A DNA stretch of 64,000 bases from Hygrocybe punicea. Its lineage: Eukaryota > Basidiomycota > Agaricomycetes > Agaricales > Hygrophoraceae. Shown here piece by piece: positions 9,237 through 31,087 of the stretch (its first letter is position 1; the number at the start of each line of letters is the position of its first letter). The DNA lies in NCBI GenBank assembly GCA_963556145.1, contig OY744463.1:6076001-6140000 (forward strand), written 5' to 3'. A model generated the notes under the pieces. That model worked only from the letters and a program-made list of their open reading frames with translations. It did not search any database and was not told the DNA's origin. Both the position numbers and the translations under genes were made by a program.

Positions 9237-10103
9237 TGTAGAGGCTCCAGACCCTCTGGATCTGTATTCCTTTCATATCCCACTCTGTTCTTGTCCAATT
9301 ATCATCAATTCCACTTGATTCTGCCTTAATTCATCAATTCCACTCCAGATCCAACTCTGGAATCATTCCTTATCGATGATGCAATGTTCCTAATGACCTG
9401 GAATTAGTATGTATCTATTTGTATATCATATATCTTCATTTCTTGTTTTCTAGTACATAGGACTTTACTCCTGTCTCACTCACCACTCCCTCCCCTATCA
9501 TATATAGCCTTCACTTGTAGCATGTAGTTACTACAGCACAGGATTCCACCAGTAGTAGTAGTATAAAGGTTGTACTTTTACACATAAGAAATACAGGTAG
9601 GGTTGACCAAGGGTTTAGCCCCTATATATTGTGGCTGATATTTGGAACCTTTCTTGTGAAGTGAGTTTTGAAATAAGTGCGAATGTTTTTGTATCCCAGG
9701 TTGGCCATACTATATCCCTACATGGTTACTTATCCAAGGATTCAGAATTGGTCACTGAAATCAGGTCAAATTTTGCTTAAGGGTTGGAAAACCCTTGAAA
9801 ACCCTTAAAAACTTGGAGTCTAAGGGGTTTTCAGGGGTTTTCACCCCTTAAGCAAAATTTGACATGATTCCAGTGACAAATTCCACACCCTTGGCTAAGT
9901 AACCATATAGGGATATAGTATGGCCAACCTGGGATGCAAAAACATTGGCACTTATTTCAAAACTCACTTCACAAGGAAGGTTCCAAATTTCAGCCACAAT
10001 ACATAGGGGCTAAACCCTTGGTCAACCCTAAATACAGGTTATTATCGCACCTCAGTTCTACACTTTAGTCCTCTCTTCAAATCATCTATATCCTTTCCCC
10101 ACA
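9237..10103 (-). repeat. LTR of an unnamed family, split by a MITE
   Basis: On the minus strand it begins TGTGGGGAAAGG and ends GGAGCCTCTACA, with a purine tract (AGAGGGGAAG) just upstream at 10104-10113, as expected for a 3' LTR. It aligns along its length (roughly three quarters identical by eye) with 23803-24250. Landmarks include the TGTAGAGGCTCC start, the TCAATTCCACTCCAGAT block and the TATATCATATATCTT block. Without the inserted MITE at 9598-10030 it is about 425 bp. Internal sequence of its parent element is not evident beyond the purine tract. Confidence 0.7.
9598..10030. mobile_element. Fully palindromic hAT MITE
   Basis: Begins TAGGGTTGACCAAGGG and ends CCCTTGGTCAACCCTA, with an 8-bp target duplication aatacagg at 9590-9597 and 10031-10038. 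The two halves (about 210 bp each) are complementary over nearly their whole length with few mismatches, so a single strand could fold into one long hairpin. It interrupts the LTR at 9237-10103. No coding capacity. Confidence 0.9.
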
Positions 10104-10209
10104 CTTCCCCTCTGTTTTGGTGGAGTAGTAGATCACATGACCTTCCCACGATTCAATCCAGTAGATTGCCCTGTTTGGTAGTTAGCAGAGAGACAAGATT
10201 CAGACTTAG

Positions 10210-10348
10210 TATTGGAATATATGGTGCAGTGGTTGTTGACTGCTTAAGATATTCAGCATTATTCATCAGACAGGCATGTTTGAGTTCTGGGGTCATGTAA
10301 TACAGATTATCAATCCTTTCCACAACTATTTGGCCACTATTCCCAACA
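10210..10348 (-). repeat. Copia 3' LTR with internal deletion
   Basis: Reads TGTTGGGAATAGTGG to CATATATTCCAATA on the minus strand. Both ends match the copia LTR, but compared with 14472-14666 a block containing TTGTATAAAAACCC (likely TATA box) and a GAGAGAGAG tract is missing. The downstream coding frame reads through it, so the last residues of the 10153-10635 reading frame are LTR, not protein. Confidence 0.65.
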
Positions 10349-11079
10349 CTCCCCTTGGTTGAATACTCTTCAACTTGTTCTGGGTCATGGTAAACATCAT
10401 CCATGTATTCCATTACATGTTCCACTCTTTCCAGTTCCACTCTGGTCAATAGACCAAGTTCAGTCATGAACTTTGCGTGAAGTGGGCAAGGTAACCCTTT
10501 CATAAATATGTCCACTAGATTTTCTTCGGAAGGAATATACATGACTTTAAGGATACCAGATGCAACGTGATCTTGTAGGAAATGTAGATTGATATCTATA
10601 TGTTTCATCCACGTGTGGAATTCCGGGTTGTGCAATATAGCACTCGCAGCCTGATTATCGGATCATAGAATCTATGTTTTGTCTGACTGTAGGTCCAATT
10701 CCTTCAATAAGTTTCTATGCCAGATCAACTGCTCGGTGGCATGAGTAGCGGCAACATATTCCACTTCAGCTGTTGACAACACAATTGTGCTCTGCTTCTT
10801 CGAGCTCCAAGCCATGGCTCCCCCTGCGATCATGAACACATATTTGCTAATGGATTTCCGGTGCAGGTTGGATTTCCAATTAGTATCAACATAATGAATG
10901 GTTTTTGTTATAATTTGTTGGACCTTTCCACCATAGGATAATTCATAGTCCATCGTTCTTTTTAGATAGTGGAATATCCTTTTAAGTGTCCAGTGTTCTG
11001 GACTCAGGTTCCATGTGAATTGCACAATGGTTACAGTTGTGTACATGATATCTGGTCTTGTTGCATGCACAGCATACAA
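10349..11079 (-). pseudogene. Copia RNase H and pol C-terminus
   Basis: First frame, 11079-10672: YAVHATRPDIMYTT (copia 'RPDI' block) and VDTNWKSNLHRKS, with later motifs AEVEYVAATHATEQLIWHR and LLKEL, which define the copia RNase H region. Second frame continues with QDHVASGILKVMYIPSEEN and VDIFMKGLPCPLH, the conserved end of copia pol ('D..TK.L'). An in-frame break lies near 10650-10672. RNase H removes RNA from the cDNA hybrid during reverse transcription. This copy cannot make a continuous protein. Confidence 0.8.
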
Positions 11080-11154
11080 GAGCTCTCTGACTTGTGTTGC
11101 GTACTCAATTGAGGTGTGTTTCCACTTGCTCTCATTGGTTTCAGTTTCATTTAT

Positions 11155-11968
11155 TCATAGGACCATGTTCTGATCTATTTGGGTTGATACTGGTTTTGCA
11201 TCTTTCATTCTGGCCTTCATGAGTATCTTCCAGAGATAACAGCTTTGTGACAGGGTGACTTTCTGTTGTTGGCGGTCTTGTTTGATATGGATTCCGAGCA
11301 GTACTGTTGGCTTTCCGATGACCATTACCATGTACTTTTCTTTCAGCTGGTTTACTATCCAATCATTCATTGCTCGGTTGTTTGCATAAGCTGTGAGGTC
11401 ATCGACCCATACAAGTACAATGGAGAAGTCTTCACCCTCCCAATGGTAGTACACACAGTAGTCGGTCCATAATCTCATATTAACAAAATTCCTTCATCAT
11501 GTTATTGAAATCCATGTTCCATACATTTCCAGCTTGTCTGAGACCATATATAGGGCATATGAGGCAGCAAACCCATTCAGTTCCATCCTCAAATTCTGCC
11601 AGCTGTTTCATGTACAGCTCCTCCTTCATCCATCCATTAAGGTATGCGCCTTTGATATCCATCTGCTGAATATCCCAATCCTTGACTGTAGAATATGTGA
11701 GCAACATCTGTAACATCTCAAACCACATCACACAAGCAAATGTTCTGGTTTGGCTGAAATCCACTCCAGGCTTCTGTGAAAACTGCTGGACTACTAATTG
11801 GGCCTTGTGCCTAGCAATTGCACCTGTCTTGTCGTGTTTCCGGTGGAAAACCCATTTGCTTCCGATGGCTTCCTGCCCCTCCAGTAAGTCTACGGGTTTC
11901 CAAATGCCCATTTCTTGTAGCTGATCAAATTCCTCTTTCATCACTACCTTCCAGTTCTCCCAATCCAT
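11155..11968 (-). pseudogene. Copia reverse transcriptase (RVT_2), frameshifted
   Basis: 11968-11480 begins MDWENWKVVMKEEFDQLQ and includes GSKWVFHRKHDKTG, HKAQLVVQQFSQKPGVDF and the catalytic QQMDIKGAYLNG, all in RVT_2 order. 11478-11155 continues in another frame with VWVDDLTAYANN, the position of the YVDD active site (Tyr replaced by Trp), and LGIHIKQD. Converts element RNA to cDNA in intact relatives. The break between the frames around 11479 means it is inactive. Confidence 0.85.
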
Positions 11969-12777
11969 GGCTTCCCTGGCTTCCCTTAAATCTCATGGGT
12001 CCTTGTCAGTGAGACTGCTGTCCTGCTGCATTGTGCTCAAAAACACATATGCAATGGTTGTTTCTGCACAAACTTTTCATTTTGTTTCACTATGGATTAT
12101 TCCATTGGTCTTCGTACACCAAGCGGTTTGCAGATCTCACATTGTGTCACTTGTGCATGTGGGTTGTTTAACTGTCAATAATTGTGGTCAACTCCTCGTG
12201 TTGCTCTTAGTGGGTATGTTATTTCATTTTCCAGTCTGCGAATGGCCCTTTCCGGTGTTGGATTCAGTGTCTTCATAGTGGGTTCTGGTGATTCTGTTGT
12301 GGGTTCCTGTGGTTCCAGAGTTTGTGAGTCATAGCCTTCTGTGACTCCACAAACCCTACGAATTTCATCTTAGCTGATTGTGGTGCCAGCTTCAATCTCT
12401 TTCTGCCTTGATATAAACCCAAACATTACATCCAAACTCCTGGAAATGCGATATGTCTGGCTTCTTGCCAGTTCAGGCTTCATGCAGAGTCATTCTGTCT
12501 AGAGCCTTGGTGGGGGATTAGTTTCGAATGTATGCTGCATGTGCAATGGCTTCCAGCCAAAGGAATGCAGGCAGGTTTTTAGCGATCAGGGTCAACTCCA
12601 GTAACATGCGATTAAATCTTTCTGCTGTTCCATGTTGCGAGGGTGAGTAAAGGGCTGTTGTTTCAATGACAATTCCCTTCTCCACTGCCCATCTCTCGAC
12701 TTCCTTGTTGACAAGTTCCTTTCCATTATCGAACTGTAAATATTTAGGGTTTCAATCAAACTCCTTCTCAATCATGT

Positions 12778-13255
12778 TCATGTAAGCCTTGATGCATTCC
12801 ATTTCATGAATAAAGGGGTTACGATGCATACTGTGTCATCTGTGAATGAGATATAGTATCTTGATCCTCCAATAGACTCTACACATGCTGGGCCCCAGAC
12901 ATTGCTCAAAGTCCACTCTCCGGCAACTTTTGATCGTCCATCAGCCTCTTTAGAAAATGGCTGGATGGCTTGCTTCACCTGAATGCAAGCCTCACAGGTT
13001 CGGGAAGGGATACTTCCTTCATCAATTTCCAGTCCTGTGACTAACCCCTTTCTCTGCAGGGTCTTGAGTCTGCTCATTATGATGTGTCCATATAGGTGGT
13101 GCCATTTGTCCCAAGACATTTTCTTTGGCTATGTTTTCCTTTTCTGGCATGTGGGATTGCACTTGGGCATTTAAACAGTAAAACTGTCTGTCTTTCTGGC
13201 CTGTTCTGACAAGTTTATTCTCCTTTGTATATAGCCTGCATATTTTGTTGTGCAA
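12778..13255 (-). pseudogene. Copia GAG-pre-integrase and integrase fragment
   Basis: 13255-13022 has NKICRLYTKENKLV and YCLNAQVQ. The overlapping 13119-12778 frame has WHHLYGHIIMSRLKTLQRKG, the H..H half of the integrase zinc finger, and CEACIQVKQ, the C..C half. Then SNVWGPACVESIGGSRYYIS and FTDD follow. The first catalytic Asp of the DDE triad (usually SDVWGP) appears as Asn. Downstream integrase from 12778 to 12000 is too decayed to follow as an ORF. Confidence 0.75.
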
Positions 13256-13273
13256 ACTACTGCTTTTATTGAA

Positions 13274-13771
13274 TCAGCTTAGCAATAATAGCAAGTTTTG
13301 TGACTCCAGTACATCCAGTACATCTTGTAGCTGATGTTGTACATCCTTTCTATCCACTGTGAAGTGTAAAATGATGGTTCCACGACCAAGAGCTCGAGCA
13401 GCTACCTTTCCTAGTCCTTGTATGGTAGCTTCATCCAGAGTTTTGTACATGATGAATGTGTTATGTGAATTGCTAATATGACTTGTCATTCCAGAGTCCA
13501 GTAACCAATCATAGTTTGAAATGTTGTCTGTATTCACTGTGTATGCTACATCCTGTAACATATTATTGACATTGTCTGCAGCTTGATTTGATCGGTTCTG
13601 GTGGCTTCCATCCTTTCTGGTGCCCTTTTCTTTCCCTTTCCACCCTTGCCCTTCCTTTCTGCCACCTTTAGACCAGCAATCTTTTACCATATGTCCTTTC
13701 TTATGGCAGTTAAAGCATTCCAGTGAACCTCTCATGCATAGTGACATTGTTAGGATCTCCGCTGTGCTCAT
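13274..13771 (-). pseudogene. Copia zinc knuckle and aspartic protease
   Basis: Contains a CCHC knuckle CFNCHKKGHMVKDC (nucleic-acid binding, Gag C-terminus). After a Lys/Gly-rich linker comes WLLDSGMTSHISN, the copia protease active site D-S-G, followed by GLGKVAARALGRGTI. The reading frame stays open over the knuckle and protease but is separated by frameshifts from the Gag upstream and integrase downstream. Confidence 0.85.
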
Positions 13772-14388
13772 GGCGCCTGCAGTCTTCCTCTAATAGGATT
13801 GCAACTAGTTCGTGTGACATCAGTGACATTCCATTCTTCTTTGAGCCTAAGTATGCTGATATATACAAGTCCCAACTTTCCGGTAAGGAGGTTACAAGTA
13901 TCATCACAAAATATTCATTGGAAATGAGGCTTCCCATCAAGTGGAGTTCCTCCTGCAGTTTCCAGAGTTTCGATATGTGCTCGATTAGGTTGAATCCTTC
14001 TTCAGCAATCAACTGGTACAGTGTGCGTCACATTGCTAATATTCTGAGCTTTTCCTCTGGATTCCTTTACCAAGGTTAGCTGTTTCCACATCTCACTCAC
14101 TGTGTGTGCACCAATGATATGTATCATTTCTGTGTCACCAATTGCAATATTGATCTGCATCCTCATCTTGGTATCTCCATTGCACCATTTCTTCATCGCC
14201 TCAGATTCTGCTGGTGTTGGACGGGAAGTGTCCACTAGGATAGGGGCTTTCAATTCCGCATTGATGTATATTTCTAACCCGAGATCCCATAGCATGGCTA
14301 ACATCCATCTCTTCCATGGCATCCAATTGTTCCCCTTCAATAACTCAATCCGGTAGGATCCCGATGTGTGCATGACTTCATCTGTCAT
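13710..14388 (-). pseudogene. Copia Gag (UBN2-type), frameshifted
   Basis: 14388-14002 reads LLKGNNWMPWKRWMLAML, the typical copia Gag start (L.G.NW..W), with AELKAPILVD and MWKQLTLVKESRGK. 14012-13710 continues in another frame with HISKLWKLQEELHLMGSLIS and LVTSLPESWDLYISAYLG, the UBN2 Gag core. It would form the particle shell; here it is split near 14005. Confidence 0.85.
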
Positions 14389-14457
14389 AGTTGGCTAGTA
14401 TATGAGATGGTAGTGCGATGTTCAGAGGTGTGTGATCGTGTTTCTGTTACAGCCGTT

Positions 14458-15958: not shown

Positions 15959-16514
15959 TGTTAGAGGCGTGCAACTCCGGAAGGATCGGAGTTCTTCGGA
16001 GGAGCGGAGACGTCAACTCTTGAAGTAGGTTCACTACTTCCTTAAGTCGTATTGAGAAGACGTGGACGGAGTGGAGTTAGTCCGGAGTTCCGGACTAAGT
16101 ACTAAGATAACTAATGAGCTTAAGGGAAAGCCTTAAGTTTGAGAGTGGGTAAGAAATAAGGAACTCAAGTTGATTTTCTGAACGGAGTTACAGGACATTG
16201 TAGTTCTAGTTTATATACTTGGTAGACTAATTGTCATGTCCTTGGAGACGTGAAGACAATATGAACTCCGGAAAGAGGACCGGAGTTCGGAAGAAAATAA
16301 AAGGGATAAAAGGTTGCTATGTACGGTGACAAGTAAACAAAGGGGAGGAAGAGAAAAGGAGGTCGGAGTAAACGGAGATGGGGAAGAATAGTAATTAACA
16401 AGAGAAGAACAATAACGTACGCGAGAAGATAAGATAAGATAAGATAAGATAAGTCGGCGGAAAAATCCGGAGCGGAGTTCGTCGGAATCCGGCGGAGCTG
16501 CATGGGATATGACA
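15959..16514 (-). repeat. Chromovirus 3' LTR
   Basis: 556 bp, TGTTAGAGGCGTGC...GGATATGACA on the plus strand. It contains twelve CGGAG words and a (GATAA)5 run at 16428-16453. The right copy is at 22440-22995. Confidence 0.95.
16428..16453. promoter_or_regulatory. (GATAA)5 array in chromovirus U3
   Basis: Five consecutive GATAA units ending in GATAAG. In the 5' LTR (22909-22934) this lies about 245-270 bp upstream of the predicted RNA start. HGATAR is the core bound by fungal GATA factors (nitrogen, iron or light regulators); binding here is inferred only. Confidence 0.5.
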
Positions 16515-16517
16515 GTA

Positions 16518-16527
16518 TCTCCCCCTT
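16518..16527 (-). other. Chromovirus polypurine tract
   Basis: The minus strand reads AAGGGGGAGA followed by TAC and the 3' LTR start TGTCAT. This is the expected primer for plus-strand DNA synthesis. Confidence 0.75.
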
Positions 16528-16599
16528 AGCGTCGAACCCTTGAGACGCCTGTGGAACAAAGGGAGAACCGCAGCGGAGTTCAAAGCGGAGGGCCTACGG

Positions 16600-16606
16600 T
16601 ATAAAA
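16600..16606 (+). promoter_or_regulatory. TATA box of the antisense chromovirus gene
   Basis: TATAAAA lies 31-37 bp upstream of the ATG at 16637, between the 3' LTR and the plus-strand gene. The leader after it ends in AACCCAAAAAATG, a good A-rich start context. Confidence 0.6.
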
Positions 16607-16636
16607 CAAACTCCTGGCCAGGAGACAACCCAAAAA

Positions 16637-17491
16637 ATGTCGTCCTCGCAATTATCGTCCTCGCAAGAGATAGCCGCGCGCATCAAGGAGATGGAGCGCG
16701 AATTCGCCGAAATGAGGGCGAAAGAGGAGGCAGAAGAACGGAGAAAAGCGGAGGACGAGAGGAAGAAGGCGGAAGAGGAGAGGAGACAGAAGATCCAGGC
16801 GGAGGCGATGAAAAGGGTGGAGGAGGAAATGAAGAAGAAAACGGCGGCGGAGGAGGAGAAAAAGAAAGTGGAGGCGGCGGAGGAGGGGCCCTCAAGTGCG
16901 GAGAAGGGGAAGAGAAAAAGAGACGGGTAAGTAAAGGCACATAAATGAAAGACCGGAGTTGACTACAGAAGCAGGGCCGTACAATGCAAGGCGTGCGCGG
17001 AACGCCGGGAAAACTGCGTGTGGCCCGCGTCCGGAAAGGCGCAGAGTTGCGATGCATGCAAGAAGAGAAAAGCGCGATGCGAGGTAGATGGTGAAGAGGG
17101 TGGAGTGAAGAAGAAAAAGAAAAAGGAGGAAAAGGAGGAATCCGGATCGGAGTACCGCGGAGTGGAGCCCGCGGTAAAGAAACCGCTGACGAGGACGGAG
17201 CAGCTTCTTCACAAGCTGCTCCGGGCGACAGAAGAAAACACGGCGATGTTGGGACGGGTCGCGGAGGCATGCGAGGGGGTATGGGACACCGTGGAGGATC
17301 TCCGCGAACATGTGGCTCAATGGGCCGACCATCTGAGGAACTTAGAGTTCCTCAGAGATAATTCATACGAGCTCCGGAAGTACACTCCGGAGTCCGAGGA
17401 CATCGCGCCGGAGGAGACGGAAACGGAGTGGGAAGAGGGGGATTTTTTGGGGAAAGGGGGAAACCTTGAAAATAGTCCGCGAAAATCGTAA
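16637..17491 (+). CDS. Antisense chromovirus gene: coiled-coil protein with Zn(II)2Cys6-type cluster (two exons)
   Basis: Exon 1, 16637-16926, encodes MSSSQLSSSQEIAARIKEME and a long Glu/Lys/Arg coiled coil (about residues 10-80). A GTAAGT donor at 16927 and CAG acceptor ending 16968 remove a 42-bp intron. Exon 2, 16969-17491, then opens in frame; predicted length 270 aa. Residues 103-134 form C-X2-C-X6-C-X10-C-X2-C-X6-C (CKACAERRENC...CDACKKRKARC), the spacing of GAL4-type zinc clusters, with the basic residues in the second half. A Lys-rich stretch and a helical region (LTRTEQLLHKLLRATEEN) follow. It has its own TATA box, lies opposite to gag-pol, and ends 11 bp from the pol stop. Because genomic RNA is transcribed from the other strand, its intron survives retrotransposition. 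Likely DNA-binding; role unproven. Confidence 0.75.
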
Positions 17492-17501
17492 ATAGACAGA
17501 A

Positions 17502-20500
17502 TTAATAGGACGGGCCCGGTTTCGAAGGATAAGCGGAGTGAAAGTCCGAAACAAGCTCAGTAGCATGTCCAAGTTCGGAGGCCAAGATCCAAGAAGTTTC
17601 TTCGTCAGTGCCTTCGTAGCCCTCCCAACGTACAAGGTACAGTAGCTTGCAAGCACGACGGCGGTTGTCGATCTTGGAATCGAGTATTTCGGAGATCTCA
17701 AACTCCGGTTCTCCGTCGACAACGATCGGAGGAGGCAGAGGTTGGACACGGTTAGGAATGGTATTCGGAGTCGCCGGTTCGAGCTGAGAGACATGATAGA
17801 CCGGGTGAACAGAGCGGAGAGCCTCCGGAAGATGGAGGGTATATGAGTGAGTACCGGCCTTAGCAATAACTTCAAAAGGCCCCAAGTTCTTCTCAGAAAG
17901 TTTCTTGGAGGGTCTAGTAGTCCGGAAATGCTCAGCTTTGACGTAGACGGAGTCCGAAACCTTGAAGTTCGGAGGCGGAGCGCGCTTCAAGTCCGCGTAG
18001 TGTTGATAACGTTGTTGTGCCTCAGAGATGGTTTGTCGAAGTTGTTGATGTAACTCATCGAGGTCCACAGCGAATTTTCGTGCGTGGGCGGAGGAGAGGT
18101 CGCGCTCCGGGTGAACGGAAAGGTTAGGGTGGTAACCTTTATTGGCAAAGAAAGGAGAAACTCCGGTAGTGGTGTTTGGAGCGTTGTTGTAAGCAAATTC
18201 CGCAAGAGGAAGGAGGGACGACCAATTATCTTGCTGATAATTGCAATAAACGCGGAGATATTGCTCAAGGGTTTGATTGACGCGTTCCGTTTGGCCATCG
18301 CCTTCAGGATGATAACCGGAGGTAAAGTGGAGTTTCATGTCGAGGGCCTTTCCGAGAGACCGGAAAAAATGGGAAACAAATTCCGTGCCTCTATCGGAGG
18401 TGACGTGACTAGGAACTCCGTGCTTAGAAAAAACGTGAATAAGGAAAAGATGTGCGAGTTGGGGGGAAGTAATCGTATCGTAAGTTGGAATAAAGATCCC
18501 TTGCTTGGAAAGACGGTCAACCACAACTAGGATGGCCGTAAATCCTTCGGAGTCCGGAAGTTGTTCGATGAAATCCATGGAAATTGAATTCCATGGTTTC
18601 TCCGGAATAGGGAGCTGCTTAAGCAATCCGTAAGGACGATGCCGAGGGGTTTTGGATCTCGCGCAGGTTGTGCAAGACTTGCAGTAATCACGGACAAAAG
18701 TCCGGAGTCCGGGCCAGGTGTATTCCCGCCGGATGATTTCGAGAGTCTTATTTTGCCCGAAGTGTCCTGCAGTAGGATGATCATGTTTGGAACGCAAAAT
18801 CCGGAGTCGTAGGTCATTGACATCGGGGACATAGATACGATTATCGAGGCGTAGAAAACCTAAATCGTCGATAGACCATTGAGGATCTGGGCCGGAGGTG
18901 GTACGGGAAATATGTCCGGAGGCAATAGGATCAACCTGTAGTCCGGAGATGATATCGGAGTGAAGGGAATCGACGTCTATGGTGAATCCGGCGCCAAGGA
19001 CTACATCTTCGAGGGAAGTCGCTCGGAGGGACGAAGCCAATTGTTCCGGCCCAAAAACAGGGCGGAAATTGTGAGGATTGGCTTTGGCGTAGTCGCTATC
19101 TCCCCCTTTAGCGTAGACGTCCCAGCGTCGAGTAAGGGTATCGGGCTTAGTGCCAAGCTTGCCTGGGCGAAAGCGGATAACAAAGTTGAAGCGGGAAAGG
19201 AACTCCAACCAGCGGGCTTGACGGCGGGTAAGCAAGCGGACGGTGGAGAAGTACTCCAAATTTTTGTGATCGGTGATAACGTCGACCGGAGTAGCAGTAC
19301 CTTCCAAATAATGCCGCCAGGCAGTGAAAGCGTCGAAGATGGCAAGGAGTTCCTTGTCATGGGTATCGTAGTTCAACTCCGAGTCCGAAAGGGTACGAGA
19401 CCGGAAAGCAACCGGATGAATTTCACCGTCAGGATGGCGTACGGAGAGAATGGAAGCAACGGCGTAATCGGAAGCATCAGTCTCCACCAGAGTGTCAAAC
19501 TCGGGTGACCAATGGGAAAGGATTGGGGCGGAAATGAAAGCGGATTTCAAGTCATTGAAGGCGGAACGACACTTATCATCGAAATTCCATTGTAACCCTT
19601 TACGAGTGAGCCGGGTAAGTGGAATAGTGATGGAGGAATAGTCCGGAATGAAATGCCGGTAAAAATTGGCGAATCCAAGGAAGGATTGAACATCTTTGAT
19701 CTTCCGGGGTTCCGGCCAATCCTGGATAGTTTGGACCTTGGCAGGATCCATAGAAAGGCCTTGGGGGGAAAGAATGTAACCCAAGTATTCCACCGTGTCA
19801 ACGCCAAAAGAGCACTTCTCGGCGTTGGCATAGAGGCCGTGTTTCCGGAGTCGTCGGAGGACCTCGCGGACATGGTCTACATGATCAGCGGGGTCATCGG
19901 AATAAATAAGGATGTCGTCAAGGTAAACAATGACAGAGACGTCAAGGAGGTCGGAAAAAATATCGTTGACGAAGTGTTGGAAGGCCGCCGGGGCGTTAGT
20001 AAGACCTTCCGGAATTACCAACCATTCAAACGAGCCATAGCGAGTGCGGAAAGCTGTTTTCCACTCATCACCTTCGGCAATCCGGACTAAATGGTAGGCG
20101 TGTTTAAGGTCGATTTTAGTGTAAATGCGCGCAGTCCGGGGAGCGTCGAGAAGGTCCGCCGTAAGAGGGATAGGATAGCGGTCCTTCCTCGTGATACGAT
20201 TGAGTCCTCGGAAATCTACGCAAAGTCGAAGACTTCCATTTTTCTTCCGAGAGAAAAGAATGGGAGCTCCGCAGGGAGAACGGGAGGAGCGGATGAAACC
20301 CGCCCGGAGATTCTTGTCAAGGAATTCCCGAAGGGTCTCGAGCTCTAAGGGTGAAATAGAGTAAATCAGGCCAAAAGGAGGTTTTGCACCATCCTCCAAA
20401 TTAATTTTGAGGTCGTAAGGACGGTGTTCAGGGAGGTTCCAAGCCTTCGTTTTGCTAAAGACGTCAGCGAATTCGTGATACTCTTCAGGGATATTGTGAA

Positions 20501-21230
20501 GGTCCACGGAGGGTTCGGAGGACTCCGGAGGGCCGTAGCTTGCAGAGCGACCGGTGGCGTCAGGTAATCGGACTTCCATACGGAAGACCTGAGTGCCGGG
20601 TACTTTGCAACCACGCAAAAAGGCTTGAGCGCTGACAAAGGAGATGTCAGGCTTCGAAGCGGATGGTGAAGAAGGTTCAGGCGGAGTAGACGGAGAGGAC
20701 GGAGGGGACGGAGGTCGTACTGGAGGGTCCGGAAGTGGTGCCTCGCTAGGCACCGGAGTCGACAACGGAGGCGCGGAATCAGAAGAACGGAATTTAACGC
20801 TATGCTCGACCCAGTCAATCAACGGATTGTATTTGGCGAGCCAGCTATATCCAAGAACTGCGGAAACAGACGGATCCAACGGAGTGACCAAAAATTCTAA
20901 GATTAGAATTTCACCAGTAGAAAAACGGACAGAGATAGATACACATTTGTCGATGATTCCACCGGAGGAACCATCAAACAAGCGGAGGCGTTTCGGAGCA
21001 GTAGGAAAAATAGGAAGATTGTGAAGGGAACAAAATTCCGGGTCAATGAAACAATGCGTCGATCCACAATCCACAAGGGTAACGATAAGCGTAGTAGAAT
21101 GATAAAGAGAAATCGTCAAGGAATCGTTAGAAAGAGTGGACGCGTTGAGTTTTACTTCCGGTAGCGCACAGTCAGGTTCAATGCAGCCTACATCCTGTGC
21201 CGGAGTATGCAGACTGCTCTCTATTTTTCC
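17502..21230 (-). CDS. pol: Chromovirus Pol polyprotein: protease, RT, RNase H, integrase, chromodomain
   Basis: Open from the gag overlap at about 21230 (in the -1 frame) to the stop at 17502, roughly 1240 codons with no break. Counting from 21119: protease VDCGSTHCFID (about 16-26); RT with YTKIDLKHAY and VYLDDILIYSDD (YLDD at 399-402); RNase H with VETDASDYAVASIL and DTHDKELLAI; integrase zinc finger HDHPTAGHFGQNK...CKSCTTCARSK; catalytic core SMDFIEQLP, TSDRGTEFVS and HPEGDGQTERVNQ; then a C-terminal chromodomain FEISEILDSK...LYLVRWEGYEGTDEETSW. Chromodomains of this class direct integration to methylated-histone heterochromatin, which fits its location among other elements. All key catalytic residues are present. 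Confidence 0.95.
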   Translation of the reverse strand, partial: GKIESSLHTPAQDVGCIEPDCALPEVKLNASTLSNDSLTISLYHSTTLIVTLVDCGSTHCFIDPEFCSLHNLPIFPTAPKRLRLFDGSSGGIIDKCVSISVRFSTGEILILEFLVTPLDPSVSAVLGYSWLAKYNPLIDWVEHSVKFRSSDSAPPLSTPVPSEAPLPDPPVRPPSPPSSPSTPPEPSSPSASKPDISFVSAQAFLRGCKVPGTQVFRMEVRLPDATGRSASYGPPESSEPSVDLHNIPEEYHEFADVFSKTKAWNLPEHRPYDLKINLEDGAKPPFGLIYSISPLELETLREFLDKNLRAGFIRSSRSPCGAPILFSRKKNGSLRLCVDFRGLNRITRKDRYPIPLTADLLDAPRTARIYTKIDLKHAYHLVRIAEGDEWKTAFRTRYGSFEWLVIPEGLTNAPAAFQHFVNDIFSDLLDVSVIVYLDDILIYSDDPADHVDHVREVLRRLRKHGLYANAEKCSFGVDTVEYLGYILSPQGLSMDPAKVQTIQDWPEPRKIKDVQSFLGFANFYRHFIPDYSSITIPLTRLTRKGLQWNFDDKCRSAFNDLKSAFISAPILSHWSPEFDTLVETDASDYAVASILSVRHPDGEIHPVAFRSRTLSDSELNYDTHDKELLAIFDAFTAWRHYLEGTATPVDVITDHKNLEYFSTVRLLTRRQARWLEFLSRFNFVIRFRPGKLGTKPDTLTRRWDVYAKGGDSDYAKANPHNFRPVFGPEQLASSLRATSLEDVVLGAGFTIDVDSLHSDIISGLQVDPIASGHISRTTSGPDPQWSIDDLGFLRLDNRIYVPDVNDLRLRILRSKHDHPTAGHFGQNKTLEIIRREYTWPGLRTFVRDYCKSCTTCARSKTPRHRPYGLLKQLPIPEKPWNSISMDFIEQLPDSEGFTAILVVVDRLSKQGIFIPTYDTITSPQLAHLFLIHVFSKHGVPSHVTSDRGTEFVSHFFRSLGKALDMKLHFTSGYHPEGDGQTERVNQTLEQYLRVYCNYQQDNWSSLLPLAEFAYNNAPNTTTGVSPFFANKGYHPNLSVHPERDLSSAHARKFAVDLDELHQQLRQTISEAQQRYQHYADLKRAPPPNFKVSDSVYVKAEHFRTTRPSKKLSEKNLGPFEVIAKAGTHSYTLHLPEALRSVHPVYHVSQLEPATPNTIPNRVQPLPPPIVVDGEPEFEISEILDSKIDNRRRACKLLYLVRWEGYEGTDEETSWILASELGHATELVSDFHSAYPSKPGPSY

Positions 21231-22399
21231 GGCTCCTCTAGAGAATCGGAACTAGAGACCGGAGGTGCGGAGGAAGTGGAGGCGGCGCGGGCGGCAACGC
21301 GAGTGGACGAATATTTGGCCTTGGTGCAATCCTTGGCCATGTGTCCGGCTCCTCCGCATATAATGCAGAGTTTATTGTCGATGCGGCGTTGACGTTCCAC
21401 GGGCTTGAGTTTACCATCCTTGCCTAGCTTATCGGCGTAGACAGGAGGGGTTTTCGGAGTGGTGGAGGAGGTACTACCGGAGTTGGTAGTTTTGGCAGGG
21501 GACTTCTTCTCGGAAGCTTTTTCGGTCGAAGACTTGGCCTCAGAAATAGAGGCTTTAGCAGAAGAGGATCCTGAAGCGTGGGAAATCTCCGATTTCCGTT
21601 CCCAATACCGGGCGTCAAGGAGTTGAGCCTTATCCTTCAGCTCGTAGAGGTTCTTTGGTTTCTCGGATTGGGCAAGTTGATCTTTGAGGCGATCCGGAAG
21701 TCCTCGGTAAAAAGAATGCCGTAAGGCACCGATGTCCCAGCCAGTCTGCGTAGCGAGACGATTGAAGTTGACGATATACTTCGCAATTCGTTGGTTATCC
21801 TTCATTACAAGGTTTTCCAACTCACTCTCGGCGCTACCTTTAGGGTCCAGAGGTCCGAAATTATTCTGCAACTCCGTGCAGAAATCTCCATAATCGGACA
21901 TGAAGTCCGGCGGATAGGTATCGATATCTGGGTTCTCCAAAAGGTAAGGCTCGAACCACGCAAGTGCGATCCCTTTGAGGTAGGAGAGGGCGAAGTTGAC
22001 TTTGGCGCCGTCCGTTTGGAAAGCGGTTGGTCGATCATTGAAGTTCAGTTGACACTGAACCAGGAAAGGGCGGAGTTTTGTCGGATCGGAGGCGTCAAAC
22101 GTGTCCGGTTCTCGGACTTTGGTGCGTTGCTTGTCGTCTCCTTTGTTTCGGAGAGTAGTGGCTAGAAGAGCGATGGCCTCAGCAAGGTTGGTATCATCGC
22201 GATTAGGATTGCCCGGTCCGAGAGGATTGTTCTCTTCGAAGACTGGGCGCGGAAACAGTTCGTGTCTCGGAGTGTGAGTTTCTTCTAACGGAGAGACCGG
22301 GGTTATCGTTGGGCGTTGGGATGAGGTGTTTGCCGGTCGTGTAAGTCGATAACGTGTGGGGGTTCTTCGTTGGGAGAAGCCTTGGAAAGACATGATCAA
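21221..22399 (-). CDS. gag: Chromovirus Gag
   Basis: 392 aa from ATG 22399, only 40 bp inside the 5' LTR. A Gag core includes QCQLNFNDRPTAFQTDGAKV, FALSYLKGIALAWFEPYL and FRRLATQTGW-like NFNRLATQTGWDIGALRHSF (retrotransposon gag family). A zinc knuckle CIICGGAGHMAKDC lies near residue 350. Ser/Lys-rich linkers surround it. It assembles particles and binds RNA. It ends GAA AAA TAG, where pol is open in the -1 frame, so Pol would be made by frameshifting. Confidence 0.95.
   Translation of the reverse strand: MIMSFQGFSQRRTPTRYRLTRPANTSSQRPTITPVSPLEETHTPRHELFPRPVFEENNPLGPGNPNRDDTNLAEAIALLATTLRNKGDDKQRTKVREPDTFDASDPTKLRPFLVQCQLNFNDRPTAFQTDGAKVNFALSYLKGIALAWFEPYLLENPDIDTYPPDFMSDYGDFCTELQNNFGPLDPKGSAESELENLVMKDNQRIAKYIVNFNRLATQTGWDIGALRHSFYRGLPDRLKDQLAQSEKPKNLYELKDKAQLLDARYWERKSEISHASGSSSAKASISEAKSSTEKASEKKSPAKTTNSGSTSSTTPKTPPVYADKLGKDGKLKPVERQRRIDNKLCIICGGAGHMAKDCTKAKYSSTRVAARAASTSSAPPVSSSDSLEEPEK
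21224..21230 (-). other. Candidate -1 ribosomal frameshift site
   Basis: The minus strand reads G GAA AAA TAG: a GGAAAAA heptamer directly before the gag stop, with pol open in the -1 frame (GGA AAA ATA GAG) and no stop down to 17502. The form resembles GGAUUUU-type slippery sites of plant viruses. A downstream structure was not assessed. Confidence 0.55.
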
Positions 22400-22439: not shown

Positions 22440-22995
22440 TGTTAGAGGCGTGCAACTCCGGAAGGATCGGAGTTCTTCGGAGGAGCGGAGACGTCAACTC
22501 TTGAAGTAGGTTCACTACTTCCTTAAGTCGTATTGAGAAGACGTGGACGGAGTGGAGTTAGTCCGGAGTTCCGGACTAAGTACTAAGATAACTAATGAGC
22601 TTAAGGGAAAGCCTTAAGTTTGAGAGTGGGTAAGAAATAAGGAACTCAAGTTGATTTTCTGAACGGAGTTACAGGACATTGTAGTTCTAGTTTATATACT
22701 TGGTAGACTAATTGTCATGTCCTTGGAGACGTGAAGACAATATGAACTCCGGAAAGAGGACCGGAGTTCGGAAGAAAATAAAAGGGATAAAAGGTTGCTA
22801 TGTACGGTGACAAGTAAACAAAGGGGAGGAAGAGAAAAGGAGGTCGGAGTAAACGGAGATGGGGAAGAATAGTAATTAACAAGAGAAGAACAATAACGTA
22901 CGCGAGAAGATAAGATAAGATAAGATAAGATAAGTCGGCGGAAAAATCCGGAGCGGAGTTCGTCGGAATCCGGCGGAGCTGCATGGGATATGACA
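22440..22995 (-). repeat. Chromovirus 5' LTR
   Basis: 556 bp, same sequence as 15959-16514. U3 carries a (GATAA)5 run at 22909-22934 and a TATA box at 22691-22698. RNA is predicted to start at 22664 from the self-priming complement. Confidence 0.95.
22691..22698 (-). promoter_or_regulatory. TATA box of chromovirus gag-pol
   Basis: The minus strand reads GTATATAAAC, about 27-34 bp upstream of 22664, which is independently predicted as the RNA 5' end by the self-priming match. Confidence 0.7.
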
Positions 22996-23802: not shown

Positions 23803-24250
23803 TGTAGAGGCTCCGGATCGTGTGGATCCATATCCCCCTCATATCTGACTCCGTTCCCATCCATTCCCACTCCCATATCATTGATTCCACCTGATTCTGG
23901 TCTTTTCCATCAATTCCACTCCAGATTCCACCTCTAGAATCATTCCTACTTGCGATGCAATGTCCCTAAAGACCCAGAATCAGTACATATATAATTGTAT
24001 ATCATATATCTTTGTTTCCCATCTCCTAGTACATAGCACCATTTCTCCTATCCTCCTCTCCACTTGCCCCCTATCACTTACGGCCTTCACTTGTAGCACA
24101 TAGTTACCATAGCACAGGATCCCTCACAGTAGTATAAAAGTAGCAAATTTACACTACAAAACAATATAGAAATACAGATACCCAGACACGCATATAGAAA
24201 CCTCTTATTGTCCCATCTCAATTATACTTGCCTTTGTCCTTTCCCCCACA
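23803..24250 (-). repeat. LTR (solo or 3' LTR) of the same family as 9237-10103
   Basis: Plus strand starts TGTAGAGGCTCCGG and ends TTTCCCCCACA. It is aligned throughout with the LTR at 9237-10103 and lacks the MITE. An adjacent purine tract on the minus strand (TCAGAGGGAGAG, 24251-24262) suggests a 3' LTR. No internal coding sequence of the parent was recognised from 24263 to 24485. Confidence 0.65.
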
Positions 24251-24485
24251 CTCTCCCTCTGATTCCGGAACCCCTGGATTCAGGTTAGATTGATTAGACT
24301 TCTCTAAAGAAACTAATTCCTCTGATCACTTTCTAGCTGATCACCCCTTTCTGTAGATTCCTCTTCTGGGTCTACAACAGAACTCACCATCACAGCACTT
24401 TCACGTGGATTGGTGCAATTTGGTCGATGTCAATGAAAGAGAGCTGATGTGGTGCAACAAATTTTATCCATAGGTTCACTTTCAT

Positions 24486-26114
24486 TACACGATCATCTTC
24501 AGATGGTGGCAAATGGGAAAATGCGGCGTATTAAGGAAGCTGAGGAAATGAAGATCTTACGAAGAAAACGGAAAGTTGAGAATGATTATGAATGGAGATG
24601 AAAGCTCATCAAAATTGATCATACGTACTGGGACATGGACAAGACGAAATTTTTGGAATTGCCTATGGAAGAACGATTGCATGAATGTTATTGGCAATTC
24701 TACAAAGCGACTTCAAATGAGGTCATCCACATGGATGTCTGCACTATTTGCGCTCACGAGCTCAGTGTTCATGGGGACAAATTGCATCATTTGCATTTGT
24801 CACAATTGGATAACTCACATCGTTTAATTCCCAAATCATACCATCCCGCACATGACCTTTTCCACCAATGACTACTCCTTTCTCGTGCTGTTAAGGCTGG
24901 ACCAATGATGTCAGATATGTGGCTCAACACTTGTGAGGGTTGCGAGGCTTCTTTGAAAGAGACAAAAGAAATTCCTCCTCCTTTTTCCCTGGCAAACAGA
25001 ATGTGGATAGGTGAAATCCCTTAGGAGTTGAAGCAACTCATGTCTGCTGAGCAGATGTTGATCATGCTTTATTATCCTTGAGTGTAAGTTTTTAAACTAT
25101 TCCCTAAACTGAGTTTTCCAGGGATGGAAATGGGGCCATTACAGAGTGCGATGGGTGGCACCCTAAGCAGCTATGACCTCAATGTTGAAGTGGCATGTTT
25201 CATGATTGAAGGCAATTTATTGACACAGTGGCCACAGATATTTGCGAGTGTGCTTTCCATAATGTTTATCGGAATGAGGATGATTCCCCAAATGTGGTTA
25301 CGATCCATGTTCAAGGTGCGGCATCAAGTAGTACACGAAGCCTTGCAATGGTTAAAGGAGAACAATGTCAAATATTATGGCCATATGAAACTTTGCATGG
25401 AAAACTTATCAGAGCTTCCTGTGGACGATGTACCTAGTGAAGTGGTTGGTCTAGTGCAGCATTCTAATGACATTGGCATTTTAGAAGAGGAGAATGGGGG
25501 GTATTTGCCTTCGCATGATGACCCAATAGCAGGTAAAGTTCCTTTAAGAGAGATAAGAGGCTAAGTTGATCATTTCAAGTAGCGGACACTCAGGATGATC
25601 AGCGGAAGAATGCTGATAAGACACAGGAGGAGATGGAAGGTAAGTTATCCATTAGTCATTTAAGTGAATCATGATTTAGATTCTTGATAGGCCCTGAAGT
25701 GATTCTCTTGCATGTTTTGGGAGCCATGGACATTGATCTCACAAGAATGACTAGTTCCGAGATGATGGTGTGGGGGCTGGCGAATCTTTGGAAAGAAGAT
25801 AAGGGAGGTGGTTATGCTATAAAGCATGGTGACCAACTGGTGGTCGATTTTGGCACCGCGCATTCAGTGAACAGAGACACAACATGGGCCTTTTTCTTTT
25901 GACAAGTCCAATTTCTTTGAAAAAGCATTTCTGTGTCTGTTTCCTTATAGTACTGGAGGAATTGAGGCTGATTGCAAGACACTACTGGATATATGACAAC
26001 ACATACAATGGGCACTTCAATATCATGATAGAATGTTCTGATGACATGAGACTTTTGCTTTCATAGCCTTTGGCATTTTACAATGACGTCAAGTGTTGGC
26101 AACGGCACAAATTC
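24486..26114 (+). pseudogene. Plus-strand Helitron, N-terminal region
   Basis: In order: RRKRKVENDYEWR, KFLELPMEERLHECYWQFY with a Cys pair (VCTICAHELSV), NSHRLIPKSYHPAHDLFH, EMGPLQSAMGGTLSSYDLN, HEALQWLKENNVKYYGH, LPVDDVPSEVVGLVQHSND, GPEVILLHVLGAMDIDLTRM. Each block has a partner in the minus-strand Helitron at 44430-42240. Several stops and frame changes separate them. This is the part upstream of the Rep domain in fungal Helitrons. The reading continues across hAT-2 at 27297. Confidence 0.75.
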
Positions 26115-26122
26115 AGATTAAT

Positions 26123-27288
26123 TAGTGTTTTAAAGTCCGGTCCAGTCCGGTTTTTTGCCATTTTTGGACATTAACCGGAACCAGACTGGGTAACTCATCA
26201 CACAATTTGTCAAAAACCTGAACTGGACCTAGAGAACTGGTTCATTTTTTGATTTTGGGTGGACCCAACCAGTCTTAACTGGTTCCAACTGGGGAAAATC
26301 ACGCTAATTATCTAAATAGCTAAATCTTTCTTAATAATTAATAACTGATAGTTTTGGGGGTGCGTTAGGCCATTGGCGACCCCGTTGGTGACATTGGTGA
26401 GTCTCTCTGCACACCCACACACTCTCTTCAACCTCGCAAAACTGTACATGCATCAATTGACACGTCGCCGTGTGTATGCGAGGTGGACTGGGATGTGGGC
26501 GTTGTGGCCCAATTGATGACGGTGTTGGTGGTCCCGTTGTGTTGACAGCCCCCAGTGGTGGGGGTGTTGGCATGTTGGTGAGGGCATTGCAGCCCCGTTG
26601 ATGATGGCGTTGGAAGACCTGCTGTGTTGATGGCCCTCAGTGGTTGGCGTGTTGGTGGGGGTGTAGCACCCTGTTGATGGCAGCATTGGCGGTCCCGTTG
26701 ATTGTGGCAGTGGTGGTCACGTCGGATGCATAGGCAGTGTGTTGATGGGTGCATTGGTGTCTCCATTGGTGTGGGTCCTCGCATTGGTCAGGAATTAGTA
26801 TAGAACAATAAATGAAAAATGAAAAAAAAACATACTTTTTCTGCAGCGCACCACCCCCTGCTGCCTTTTCTCACTTCCTTGTGGCCATCACGGTCATTTT
26901 GCTGCAGTCTTGGTCAATGTGGGTACTCGGTAGTGTTCTTGTTTGGCCAGCATTTGTGGCCAAACTTGTTGACATGGTCCGTGTGCACACCACATGTCCT
27001 ATATAAACCCAGCCTTATGCATGTCATCTCCCAATTTTATATTAAGTCATAGTCTAATTAGGTTAATAAATAAATATTACTTTGTAGCTCACATAGACAG
27101 CCAAGTCCAGTTGCAACTGGTTCAAACTGGTTGCAACCCGGTCTTCAGTAATGTAAGTTAAGTTAACCACAACCGGTTTTTTAATGAGAAAGAAGGATGA
27201 ACCTGAACTGTGGTCCAGTTTTTTTCTGGTCCAGTCCAGTTAGGTCCTGGTTTTTTCCTGGTCCTATGGACTGGACCTTCAAACACTA
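26123..27288. mobile_element. Non-autonomous hAT element hAT-2
   Basis: Termini TAGTGTTTTAAAGTCCGGTC and GACTGGACCTTCAAACACTA with 8-bp target duplication agattaat at 26115-26122 and 27289-27296. Subterminal repeats of GGTCCAGT/CCAGTCC. It splits the Helitron Rep frame between QIQIN and MDFQSD. Interior with GTTGGTG-rich sequence; no transposase. Confidence 0.9.
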
Positions 27289-27296
27289 AGATTAAT

Positions 27297-27345
27297 AGGA
27301 TGGATTTTCAAAGTGACACGGAACAACTGATGTCGTTAACACCAG
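27297..27345 (+). pseudogene. Plus-strand Helitron Rep fragment between two insertions
   Basis: Encodes MDFQSDTEQLMSLTPAH, matching RTDFQRDAMILMALTPEH in the minus-strand Helitron. The left neighbour is hAT-2; the frame stops at the edge of the foldback element and resumes as LTPEHLQQVAKEED at 34441. Confidence 0.75.
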
Positions 27346-27502
27346 CACATCATGCTGTGACTTTTCCCATGTCAGACGAGTCAACCAAGATTGACAATGT
27401 TAAGTCCGAGATGGGCCAGCCGATCTGGGTGGAGAAAATGATATTGTTAGGTACTTGACGGGGCAACTCAGGAATGTCATAGTTATGGTGTTAGATGGGT
27501 GG

Positions 27503-27749
27503 GCCGAGGTTTGAGCCAGAATATTGTTACCGGTGTGAGACCGTTGGGCTGATGTTCTATGGGGGTATTGTTACCCATGTCAGACTGTTGGGCCAAGATA
27601 TTTTGGGGGCATTGTTACCCGTCTCGGACTGTTGGGCCGAAGTTCTGTGGGAATATGGTTACCGGTCTCAGACCGTTGGGCCAAGATATTTCGGGGGCAT
27701 TGTTACCTGTCTGATACTGTTGGGCCGAGGTTCTGAGGGGGCATTGTTA
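27503..27749. repeat. Minisatellite, about 53-bp unit
   Basis: About five units with GTTGGGCC(G/A)AG...TGTTACC. Mirror copy at 34045-34291. Confidence 0.85.
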
Positions 27750-28149
27750 CTCATATAATACCCTCCAGCCAATGAAATATCATTGATACAGTTCATTGAG
27801 ATTGGCATTGGCATCGGTGTTCACATCGGCATCAGCATCGGCGTGGGCATTGGCATCCTCAATCAGTCTCATCAATGCCATGGTTAAGGGGTTAGGTATT
27901 GGATGCCATATTGACATTAGAAACAGTGGCAATAATGTGAGAATGGGCATAGGCATAAACCTCGGCATCGGCATCGGCACTGGCCTTGGCATCAGTCTTA
28001 ACATTGGTGAAGCAGCATTTGCTACTACATTTACATCTGTATTGGCACAGGTTGCACAGTGAACATTTGTCCAACCAACCAACACTGAACTCACATGATG
28101 CTGATGCCGATGCCGATGCCGATGCTGAGGTTGAGGCAAATGCTTGATT

Positions 28150-28900
28150 GTAGGTTGTCAAATACCTCCGGATGGCTCATGGAAGTATTGGTGTGCATAG
28201 AGGCCATTGTATACTAATTGTCTGTCAGCCAATGTAAGCTGGCCAGACCCATGGTTTCAATGCACAGCTAATGCCGAGGTTGATGCCGATGTTTTTTGGC
28301 ATTTGCTTGTAACATGTAAAATACCGCCGGAAAGTGTCTGAATATCTTGGTGGACATAGAGCCCATTGTATACTAACTGTCTCTCAGCCAAGGTAAGCTG
28401 ACCGGACCCATGGTTCAACTGCAAAACCAACACCGAGGTTGATGCCGATGTTTTTTGACATTTGTTCACAACATGTTAAATACTGCCAGAAAGCATCTGA
28501 GTGGACATAGAGGCCATTGTATACTAACTGTCTCTCAGCCAATGTAAGCCGACCGGATCCATGATTTAACTGCAAAGCTAATGCCGAGGTTGAGGCCGAT
28601 GTTTTTTGACATTTGTTTGTAACATGTAAAATACTGCCAGGAAGCCTCTTAATATCTTGGTGTACATAGTGCCCATTGTATACTAAGTGTCTCTCAGCAA
28701 ATGTAAGCCGATCAGACCCATGGTTCAACTGCAAAACTGACACCAAGGTCAATGCCGATGTTTTTTGGCATTTGATTACAAGATGTCAGATACCTCCGGA
28801 AAACTCATGCATACATTGGTGCACATAGATATAATCATATACTAACTGTCACTCAGCGAAAACGAGCCAGCCAGACCAATAGTTCAATTGCAAAGCCAAG
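28150..28900. repeat. Tandem repeat, about 150-bp unit
   Basis: About five units, each with GATGTTTTTTGRCATTTG, an ACATGT(A/T)AAATAC(T/C)G segment, and GTATACTAACTGTCTCTCAGCC. Two further units lie right of the nested hAT (30092-30370). The mirror copy is in the right arm. Confidence 0.85.
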
Positions 28901-28906
28901 GCCGAT

Positions 28907-30083: not shown

Positions 30084-30706
30084 AGGCCGATGCTGGTGCT
30101 GATGTTTTTTGGCATTTGACTACAAGATGTCAAATACTGCTGGAAAAATCATAAATATATTGCTGGGCATAGATATAGTCATATACTAACTGTCACTCAG
30201 CCAACATGAGCCAGCCGGATGGATGGTTAGGCCAATGCTGAGGCCGATGTTTTTTGGAATTTACTTATAACTTGTCAGATACCTCCGGAAAAATCATGAA
30301 TATATTTGCAGACATAGAACCCATCATGTACTAACTGCCACCCAGCCAATGTGAGCATGGGATTCACTGCAAAACCAAAGCTGAGAAAGCCACACACTAC
30401 TTTGGAGCCAGTTCCCCCTTCACCTCTCACTCAAATGACAGAATTAAACCCTTAAAACCCCACAACCCACTGAAGCTACAGACCAATATGTATTGCACCT
30501 GTATTTGAGTACAATAAGTAACAGTACAATACCACAAAAGTGGGCAAAAGTGTAGATACATACCATAAACTCTGGTACTTCCCCAGAACTCACAAACCCC
30601 CTACCCTCAACAAACACATTGGTAGGTCCTTTCTTGGCTGGTATTGAGACATAAGAGCATTTGAATCACTGCAAATCATAAGACAAGCAAAAAAGGTATA
30701 GAATTT

Positions 30707-30887
30707 ATTTACACGGTAACCAGGAAGATTAAAAAGAATATTCTGGGGCCAGAGCATGGAGATAGTGTCTGAGAACTGAAATTTAAATTGTCTATGTAAT
30801 AGGTGCAAGGGTGGCCAAGATATAACAGTATGAGTGCTGGATTCAGTATGGAATAGTCAGTTTCTGAATCAAGCAGTCAAGTGACTT
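30707..30887. other. Unpaired spacer at the palindrome centre
   Basis: Has no counterpart on the right side, where the arm starts directly at the gap edge (31088). No gene seen. Confidence 0.6.
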
Positions 30888-31087
30888 NNNNNNNNNNNNN
30901 NNNNNNNNNNNNNNNNNNNNNNNNNNNNNNNNNNNNNNNNNNNNNNNNNNNNNNNNNNNNNNNNNNNNNNNNNNNNNNNNNNNNNNNNNNNNNNNNNNNN
31001 NNNNNNNNNNNNNNNNNNNNNNNNNNNNNNNNNNNNNNNNNNNNNNNNNNNNNNNNNNNNNNNNNNNNNNNNNNNNNNNNNNNNNNN
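30888..31087. other. Assembly gap, 200 N
   Basis: Exactly 200 unknown bases, a conventional scaffold gap of unspecified true size. It lies at the centre of the inverted duplication. Confidence 1.

Follow-up and report, generated by a model that had tools for sequence, protein, structure and literature searches.

Antisense accessory genes between pol and the 3' LTR (aORF-3R) are already known from several LTR retrotransposons, namely from plants, with gene23 of Grande, RIRE2 and TRP28 of Retand, and from Botrytis, with Boty (PMC7264820, PMC11963269). Their function in LTR retrotransposons is called an open question in the accessible part of one of these sources (PMC7264820). A protein of a transposable element (TE) with a defined target is described from Arabidopsis, where VANC21 binds a TE-specific motif that forms dense arrays in the same orientation, and where VANC causes loss of methylation through the VANDAL element (PMC5735166). 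Tcn1-like elements of fungi and plants are chromoviruses, as is the element described here, and a figure key in their description lists an additional ORF of unknown function (PMC2864245); we liken them to our element by description and not by sequence, and the accessible text of that paper does not contain the word antisense.

Here, we describe a chromovirus of Hygrocybe punicea that lies in a window of 64,000 nucleotides, which is the whole stretch of DNA analysed (contig OY744463.1, positions 6,076,001 to 6,140,000). As far as the aORF-3R genes are characterized in the accessible texts, the antisense gene of this element shares with them its position, its orientation, its presence in most copies and a likely nuclear or DNA-binding product, and with Grande an own promoter. 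In contrast to the aORF-3R elements, the window element is a fungal chromovirus with a zinc-cluster-like domain, a conserved intron and a conserved candidate target array. The text available on Retand makes no mention of an intron, whereas the intron of the window gene is conserved, and Boty resembles the window element in the described position and orientation of its gene. With VANC and VANDAL, going by the accessible description, the window element has in common a TE-encoded protein and a short TE-specific motif in same-orientation arrays. However, VANDAL is a DNA transposon and the VANC21 motif is mainly non-coding, whereas the window element is a retrotransposon, its protein has a predicted zinc-cluster-like fold, its motif also lies within codons, and both its binding and its effect on methylation are proposed from sequence. 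Among the literature matches listed, judged by titles and the beginnings of abstracts and with subscription papers mostly outside the search, none dealt with an LTR retrotransposon that carries a zinc-cluster gene. Antisense accessory genes at this place in an element have precedents; the spliced zinc-cluster-like gene together with a conserved element-wide candidate target is new relative to the literature matches listed.

The chromovirus and its copies

The window element is a young Ty3/gypsy chromovirus. It comprises gag, pol with the domain order protease, reverse transcriptase, RNase H and integrase, a C-terminal chromodomain, LTRs and a short target site duplication, GAGAG, which was read from the sequence on both flanks. 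The chromodomain (PF00385) scored 25.4 bits compared with a cut-off of 25.1. Pol and the antisense gene are convergent and end 10 nt apart. The parts of the element, in window coordinates, are:

15959-16514, minus strand: 3' LTR of the chromovirus, 556 bp, one of an identical LTR pair
16516-16528, minus strand: putative polypurine tract, 1 base from the 3' LTR, read by eye
16600-16606, plus strand: TATAAAA box of the antisense gene
16611-16624, plus strand: 14-bp perfect palindrome CTCCTGGCCAGGAG between TATA box and start codon
16637-16926, plus strand: exon 1, 290 nt, with a charged coil-like region that ends in the basic stretch GKRKRDG
16927-16968, plus strand: intron, 42 nt, GTAAGT...CAG; 48 nt with the second AG at 16973-16974
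16969-17491, plus strand: exon 2, 523 nt, with a Zn2Cys6-like cluster (16985-17080), a Lys-rich linker, a long helix and an acidic C-terminus
21251-17502, minus strand: pol, with protease, reverse transcriptase, RNase H, integrase and C-terminal chromodomain
22417-21224, minus strand: gag with a CCHC zinc knuckle
22440-22995, minus strand: 5' LTR of the chromovirus, identical to the 3' LTR, with the sense TATATA at about 22693-22698

The organism's own genome (92.2 Mb in 42 contigs) contains at least 40 close copies with 97-100% identity, the window included (40 of 76 candidates were scored). Matching 5-bp target site duplications flank 19 of the 20 full-length copies fetched, the remaining copy having a single LTR match, and the LTRs of 19 copies measured show 0-4 differences. 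Organism names were attached to four of the 120 gag relatives listed, which come from Trametes (twice), Pisolithus and Astraeus, all of them basidiomycetes. For 51 of the 54 top gag matches typed (of 106 listed), the antisense gene is matched, in some cases partially, on the opposite strand no more than 14 kb downstream. A few of these gene matches are far off, probably owing to nested insertions, and one is part of an adjoining copy. The three top gag copies without a gene match are located on contig 33, at C2:3967121 and at C3:6538412. The copy on contig 33, 99% identical in gag, was considered as an intact gene-less element and rejected, because it is truncated and only window positions 18509-21299 were matched in the 5.5 kb downstream of its gag.

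Beside the chromovirus, broken Ty1/copia-like gag-pol frames were recognized by eye at 10153-14394 on the minus strand. Direct repeats at 9300-9547 and 23876-24123 (80-84% identity, constant spacing of 14,576) flank both elements, and the window also holds a 210-nt inverted repeat, 90% complementary, at 9598-9807 and 9821-10030 with 13 nt between the arms.

The antisense gene and its protein

The original prediction of an antisense TATA box, a start codon, a frame-joining intron and a cysteine cluster between the pol stop at 17502 and the 3' LTR was borne out, as all of these were found again in the sequence. Exons 1 and 2 join into one frame of 270 amino acids. The predicted removal of exactly 42 nt does join the frames; the true acceptor, however, may be the AG 6 nt downstream, which would extend the intron to 48 nt. 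The reading frame is kept with either acceptor, and the later one is suggested because its CAG aligns with the acceptor of a second subfamily, in which the intron has 50 nt.

This subfamily (B) is about 20% diverged and retains both gene and intron. Its copies in the own genome were revealed with P0001, a protein of 165 amino acids from a short public contig, as query; out of 92 matches, 20 further loci were fetched, of which 7 are close copies, 8 belong to subfamily B with a readable cysteine cluster and 5 have a broken cluster. Counted from the donor to the shared CAG, the window intron has 48 nt, and seven of the eight diverged loci with a readable intron have 50 nt; in L059 it has 43 nt and one exon base is also lost, and in a ninth locus, L062, it is unreadable. 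GTAAG and CAG are kept in the diverged introns. In the seven loci with 50 nt, 22-25 of 32-35 positions of the intron interior are identical, as are 24-27 of the last 30 nt of exon 1. The change in intron length by 2 nt with an intact frame is as predicted for a spliced intron. An in-frame TAA stop sits within the splice donor (16925-16932), so that translation of an unspliced transcript would stop behind the coil and the basic stretch and give a short coil-only protein.

Upstream of the gene, a TATAAA near the gene start is present in 17 of the 20 further loci. Thirteen of the 20 have an intact palindrome CTCCTGG(A)CCAGGAG, allowing for no or one base at its centre; in subfamily B its length is odd through the central A. 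The palindrome at 16611-16624 is a possible operator. The end of pol is matched beside the gene in 19 of these 20 loci, in L054 and L064 by short pieces only; the exception is L061.

The start codon, the GTAAG donor and the AG acceptor are kept in all 40 close copies (the window and 39 others). Random stops in other copies had been named as a refutation of the original prediction; the frame is open in 36 of 40, counting as open the 12 copies that share a stop seven codons early. Three of the four broken frames have 1-nt deletions in the last ~16 codons and one has a stop at codon 132. In all 35 copies that were read in register, the six cysteines occupy fixed positions, while two more copies are out of register through in-frame deletions and three were left unread. 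The five loci with a broken cluster (L060-L064), in which the cysteines are incomplete or split between frames, are taken as decayed. A 2-nt deletion affects one cysteine codon in L060, L062 and L063, one cysteine in L061 and two in L062 are lost by substitution, and L064 aligns with the last two cysteines only. Within subfamily B, the readable cluster of L054 contains a stop. Exon 2 is identical in the pairs L059/L067 and L056/L057, whose members are separated by about 10 kb and 27 kb of one contig and are probably segmental duplications of decayed copies; in L059/L067 one base is missing at the end of exon 1.

Within the family, a selection test on the 40 copies was not significant (42 synonymous and 68 other substitutions; omega 0.79, p 0.14), the substitutions among close copies being too few for it. 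Against the diverged subfamily, the comparison that had been suggested as a check of the gene, exon 2 of the window has a dN/dS of 0.12-0.22 (8 B loci, 6 distinct), and values of 0.13-0.27 were obtained among the B loci, all of them approximate because dS is near saturation. Decay of B copies pushes dN/dS up, not down. In five of five comparisons the gene frame has the lowest dN/dS of all six frames (0.12-0.22); the reverse frame with the same third positions has 0.26-0.41 and the remaining frames 0.61-2.0, and the end of pol has 0.07-0.10 in 7 fragments. A chance ORF is ruled out by dN/dS, by the splice sites and by the copies. The antisense gene codes for protein and is part of the element family, and its intron is conserved. 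The convergent arrangement of the two genes at a distance of 10 nt and the own TATA box would also suit an antisense transcript that matters as RNA, by convergent antisense or dsRNA control, with the protein being secondary, and such a role is discussed for plant aORF-3R in the accessible part of one source (PMC7264820). We regard this as very improbable, since the low dN/dS in the gene frame, the conserved cysteines of the sequences read and the frame maintained by 36 of 40 copies speak for selection on the protein.

The protein was originally assigned to the GAL4-type Zn(II)2Cys6 class, in which the cysteine spacing ranges over C-x2-C-x6-C-x5-12-C-x2-C-x6-8-C. Residues 103-134 of the 270 read C-x2-C-x6-C-x10-C-x2-C-x6-C, which fits this range exactly, and the six cysteines are invariant in 8 of 8 aligned sequences, all of which except P0001 and the window were chosen for a readable cluster, the cluster being broken in five further decayed loci. 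While spacing and conservation agree with the assignment, the profile search that had been proposed as a check did not: Zn_clus (PF00172) was matched with 12.7 and 13.8 bits, below its gathering score of 21, and at E up to 5 by one of the eight members. No other Pfam family exceeded its cut-off for the members of the antisense protein; L053 touches a zf-PHD-like profile (E 0.0013; 18.7 bits, where the cut-off is 27), and the remaining Pfam matches are weaker. The basic residues that contact DNA in GAL4-type proteins are located in the first half-cluster. In the window protein the basic run KKRKAR lies in the second half of the cluster, not in the first.

AlphaFold2 predictions for two sequences gave mean pLDDT values per block of 71-80 over residues 1-40 and helices at 5-9, 26-30 and 73-128. 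The pairing of the predicted fold with Gal4, Hap1 and Ppr1 is weak, at low structural Z, and the cysteine pattern alone may drive the model. All 18 PDB entries listed as pairing with it (out of 26 chains aligned) are taken as Zn2Cys6 proteins. A PDB search by sequence gave two weak matches to the helical part (best E 0.075). P0001 (67%) was the single relative among 5.8 billion proteins, and scans of viral contigs and prokaryote contigs revealed no homologue of the antisense protein. With the fungal proteins Gal4, Hap1, Lac9 and Ppr1, the window protein shares the six-cysteine spacing and, by prediction, two short helices, a following coiled-coil-like helix and candidate sites of the CGG type; unlike them, it is below the Pfam cut-off, has its basic half as the second half and is encoded by a retrotransposon.

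The CTCCG/CGGAG array

The word (A)CTCCG/CGGAG is strongly over-represented in the LTR, in pol and in the antisense gene, and weakly in gag. The element has 110 copies of CTCCG/CGGAG, 89 of them as CTCCG and 21 as CGGAG on the sense strand. Its interior contains 82 sites where about 20 are expected (z ~13), and nine other tiles of the window gave z values of -1.8 to 2.6 for the same word. The sense strand of the LTR has 12 CTCCG in comparison to 1.2 in dinucleotide shuffles (none of 500 reached 12), 2 CGGAG in comparison to 0.2 (9 of 500 reached 2) and 5 TCCGGA in comparison to 0.1. Three CTCCG sites are clustered at 16468-16497, at the start of U3 in the 3' LTR. In pol, 40 CTCCG stand against 16.7 in synonymous-codon shuffles (z 7), which rules out codon usage as the cause of the motif. 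In an unbiased ranking of 5-mers under two null models, CGGAG was first and CCGGA second in LTR and pol, with the reverse order in the antisense CDS, and CGGAG had rank 5 in gag. Plain CGG was set aside as the enriched unit, its enrichment being weaker than that of CTCCG/CCGGA. In pol, the excess of CGGAG stems from CCGGAG, and CGGAG in other contexts shows no enrichment (4 in comparison to 2.4). Pairs of CTCCG 8-10 bp apart number 12 in comparison to 2.8 in a jitter null, but we give them no weight because several of them fall within one repeat-like stretch of pol. Rfam gave no match at gathering score. At 24000-32000 of the window, CCGGA is enriched (24 in comparison to 6.8, rank 5) together with several words of the CGG type (ATCGGC, CAACGG) and without CGGAG, which speaks against specificity.

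A second young chromovirus family of the own genome (L069:888-7822), whose LTRs are identical and whose pol is separated from the 3' LTR by about 1.2 kb, served as control. It has no enrichment of the motif (5-mer ranks 45 to 251), no zinc-cluster motif in single frames and no clear antisense gene by eye. The stretch taken as the LTR of L072, a longer diverged locus, shows no enrichment, and foreign sequence seems to be present there. Measured against nine window tiles and one other chromovirus, the motif is enriched and TE-specific in the manner of the VANC motif; its link to the protein comes from one family and one control chromovirus.

CTCCG/CGGAG is conserved at silent sites between the subfamilies. 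Ten diverged loci were compared, including the longer L071 and L072, which overlap L060 and L049, and the p-values given here are indicative because there are only two subfamilies and the B copies share descent. At fourfold-degenerate non-CpG sites the conservation is 0.924 within the motif (45 sites) in comparison to 0.680 outside (595 sites), with 0.711 at up to 9 nt from the motif. By p, CGGAG is first among 30 testable 5-mers (3e-4; ~0.01 after a factor of 30), and by size the top word, at 0.994, is ACTCC, an overlap of the motif, with AAGGA and AGGAG also reaching 0.900. Silent CpG sites are conserved at 0.619 within the motif versus 0.490 (p 0.03), and other third positions show no significant difference. 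In the LTR, 41 of 42 non-CpG motif sites are kept versus 363 of 454 (L071) and 359 of 454 (L072), while CpG motif sites of the LTR show no clear difference (18/28 versus 18/32 and 19/28 versus 21/32 in subfamily-B LTRs). CTCCG is intact or decayed at its CpG only in 62 of 77 cases in L071, versus 197 of 392 for other NNNCG words (p 4e-7), and in 61 of 74 cases in L072 (3 more missing), versus 186 of 366 (p 2e-7); for CGGAG the counts are 12 of 19 and 15 of 19, respectively. The decay products CTCCA, CAGAG and, in L072, ACTCTG are among the top words in the interiors of L071 and L072, where CGGAG has ranks 2 and 9. Across loci L009-L028, 126 singletons fall on 998 CpG sites versus 91 on 6039 others, an excess of about eightfold that suggests active cytosine methylation in the host fungus. 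This excess is seen within the motif as well as outside it, and the CpGs of the motif are not spared among the present A copies, where 25 singletons fall on 216 motif sites and 101 on 782 others.

The bias of the motif towards the sense strand (89:21) makes a role in RNA possible. The array could act on the sense RNA, in its packaging by Gag, its export, its stability or its translation; the protein could then have a separate task such as control of the LTR via other sites or integration targeting. The derivation of the CGGAG excess in pol from CCGGAG agrees with a function of the sense RNA, as does the extension of the array over both the LTR and the coding regions, since the genomic RNA includes all of these. 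We consider this the main rival to DNA binding, albeit an unlikely one. CGG is the classic half-site of Zn2Cys6 proteins, the LTR has both orientations above shuffles (the second with just 2 sites), and the control chromovirus, in which no zinc-cluster motif was found, has no array. Moreover, same-orientation arrays are described for a DNA-binding TE protein (PMC5735166), and Zn2Cys6 proteins are described as typically binding CGG triplets (PMC5559640), both according to the accessible parts of these papers.

A self-encoded regulator as proposed function

We lean towards the view that the protein is a self-encoded antisense trans-regulator which binds and activates or de-silences its own element. 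The original prediction that the element encodes its own DNA-binding regulator is upheld as far as a protein-coding gene of the element and a conserved CGG-type array are concerned; DNA binding and regulation are what we infer. The 270-aa protein would form a zinc cluster with a dimerising helix behind it, the basic stretch would take it into the nucleus, and there it would bind CTCCG/CGGAG sites in the U3 of each LTR and throughout the element body. The CTCCG cluster in U3 is located 100-130 bp upstream of the antisense TATA box and, in the 5' LTR, about 250-280 bp upstream of the sense TATATA. Due to this placement upstream of both TATA boxes, one array could serve both genes: at the 5' LTR the protein would raise gag-pol transcription, and at the 3' LTR the U3 array would also drive the protein's own gene. 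Binding across the body may counter silencing by CpG methylation, as VANC does on VANDAL. The antisense orientation would let the gene keep its intron, which can persist because the genomic RNA carries only the complement of the gene. HBZ of HTLV is a bZIP protein, spliced and encoded at the 3' end of its element. Together with APH-2 it represents antisense nuclear regulators as proposed here, without a claim of homology (PMC11963269, accessible part).

The U3 sites and the palindrome at the gene's own promoter could likewise be operators of a repressor, a self-limiting factor that binds the LTR and holds the copy number down. We regard a repressor as improbable, because the elements that bear the gene have spread well, as seen from the number of close copies and their few LTR differences. 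Returning to the activating or de-silencing regulator, we speculate further, and with somewhat less than even confidence, that the whole sequence, LTRs and silent codon sites included, has been selected as a dense array of sites for the element's own spliced zinc-cluster protein, which would form an element-wide coat for self-recognition and anti-silencing, with an origin independent of plant VANC.

The function is directly testable, since a single sequence shows both the protein and its candidate target. If the proposal is true, retrotransposons too carry sequence-specific self-activating or anti-silencing factors, silent codon positions would double as regulatory DNA, and the antisense gene would provide a compact, TE-specific zinc-cluster DNA binder.
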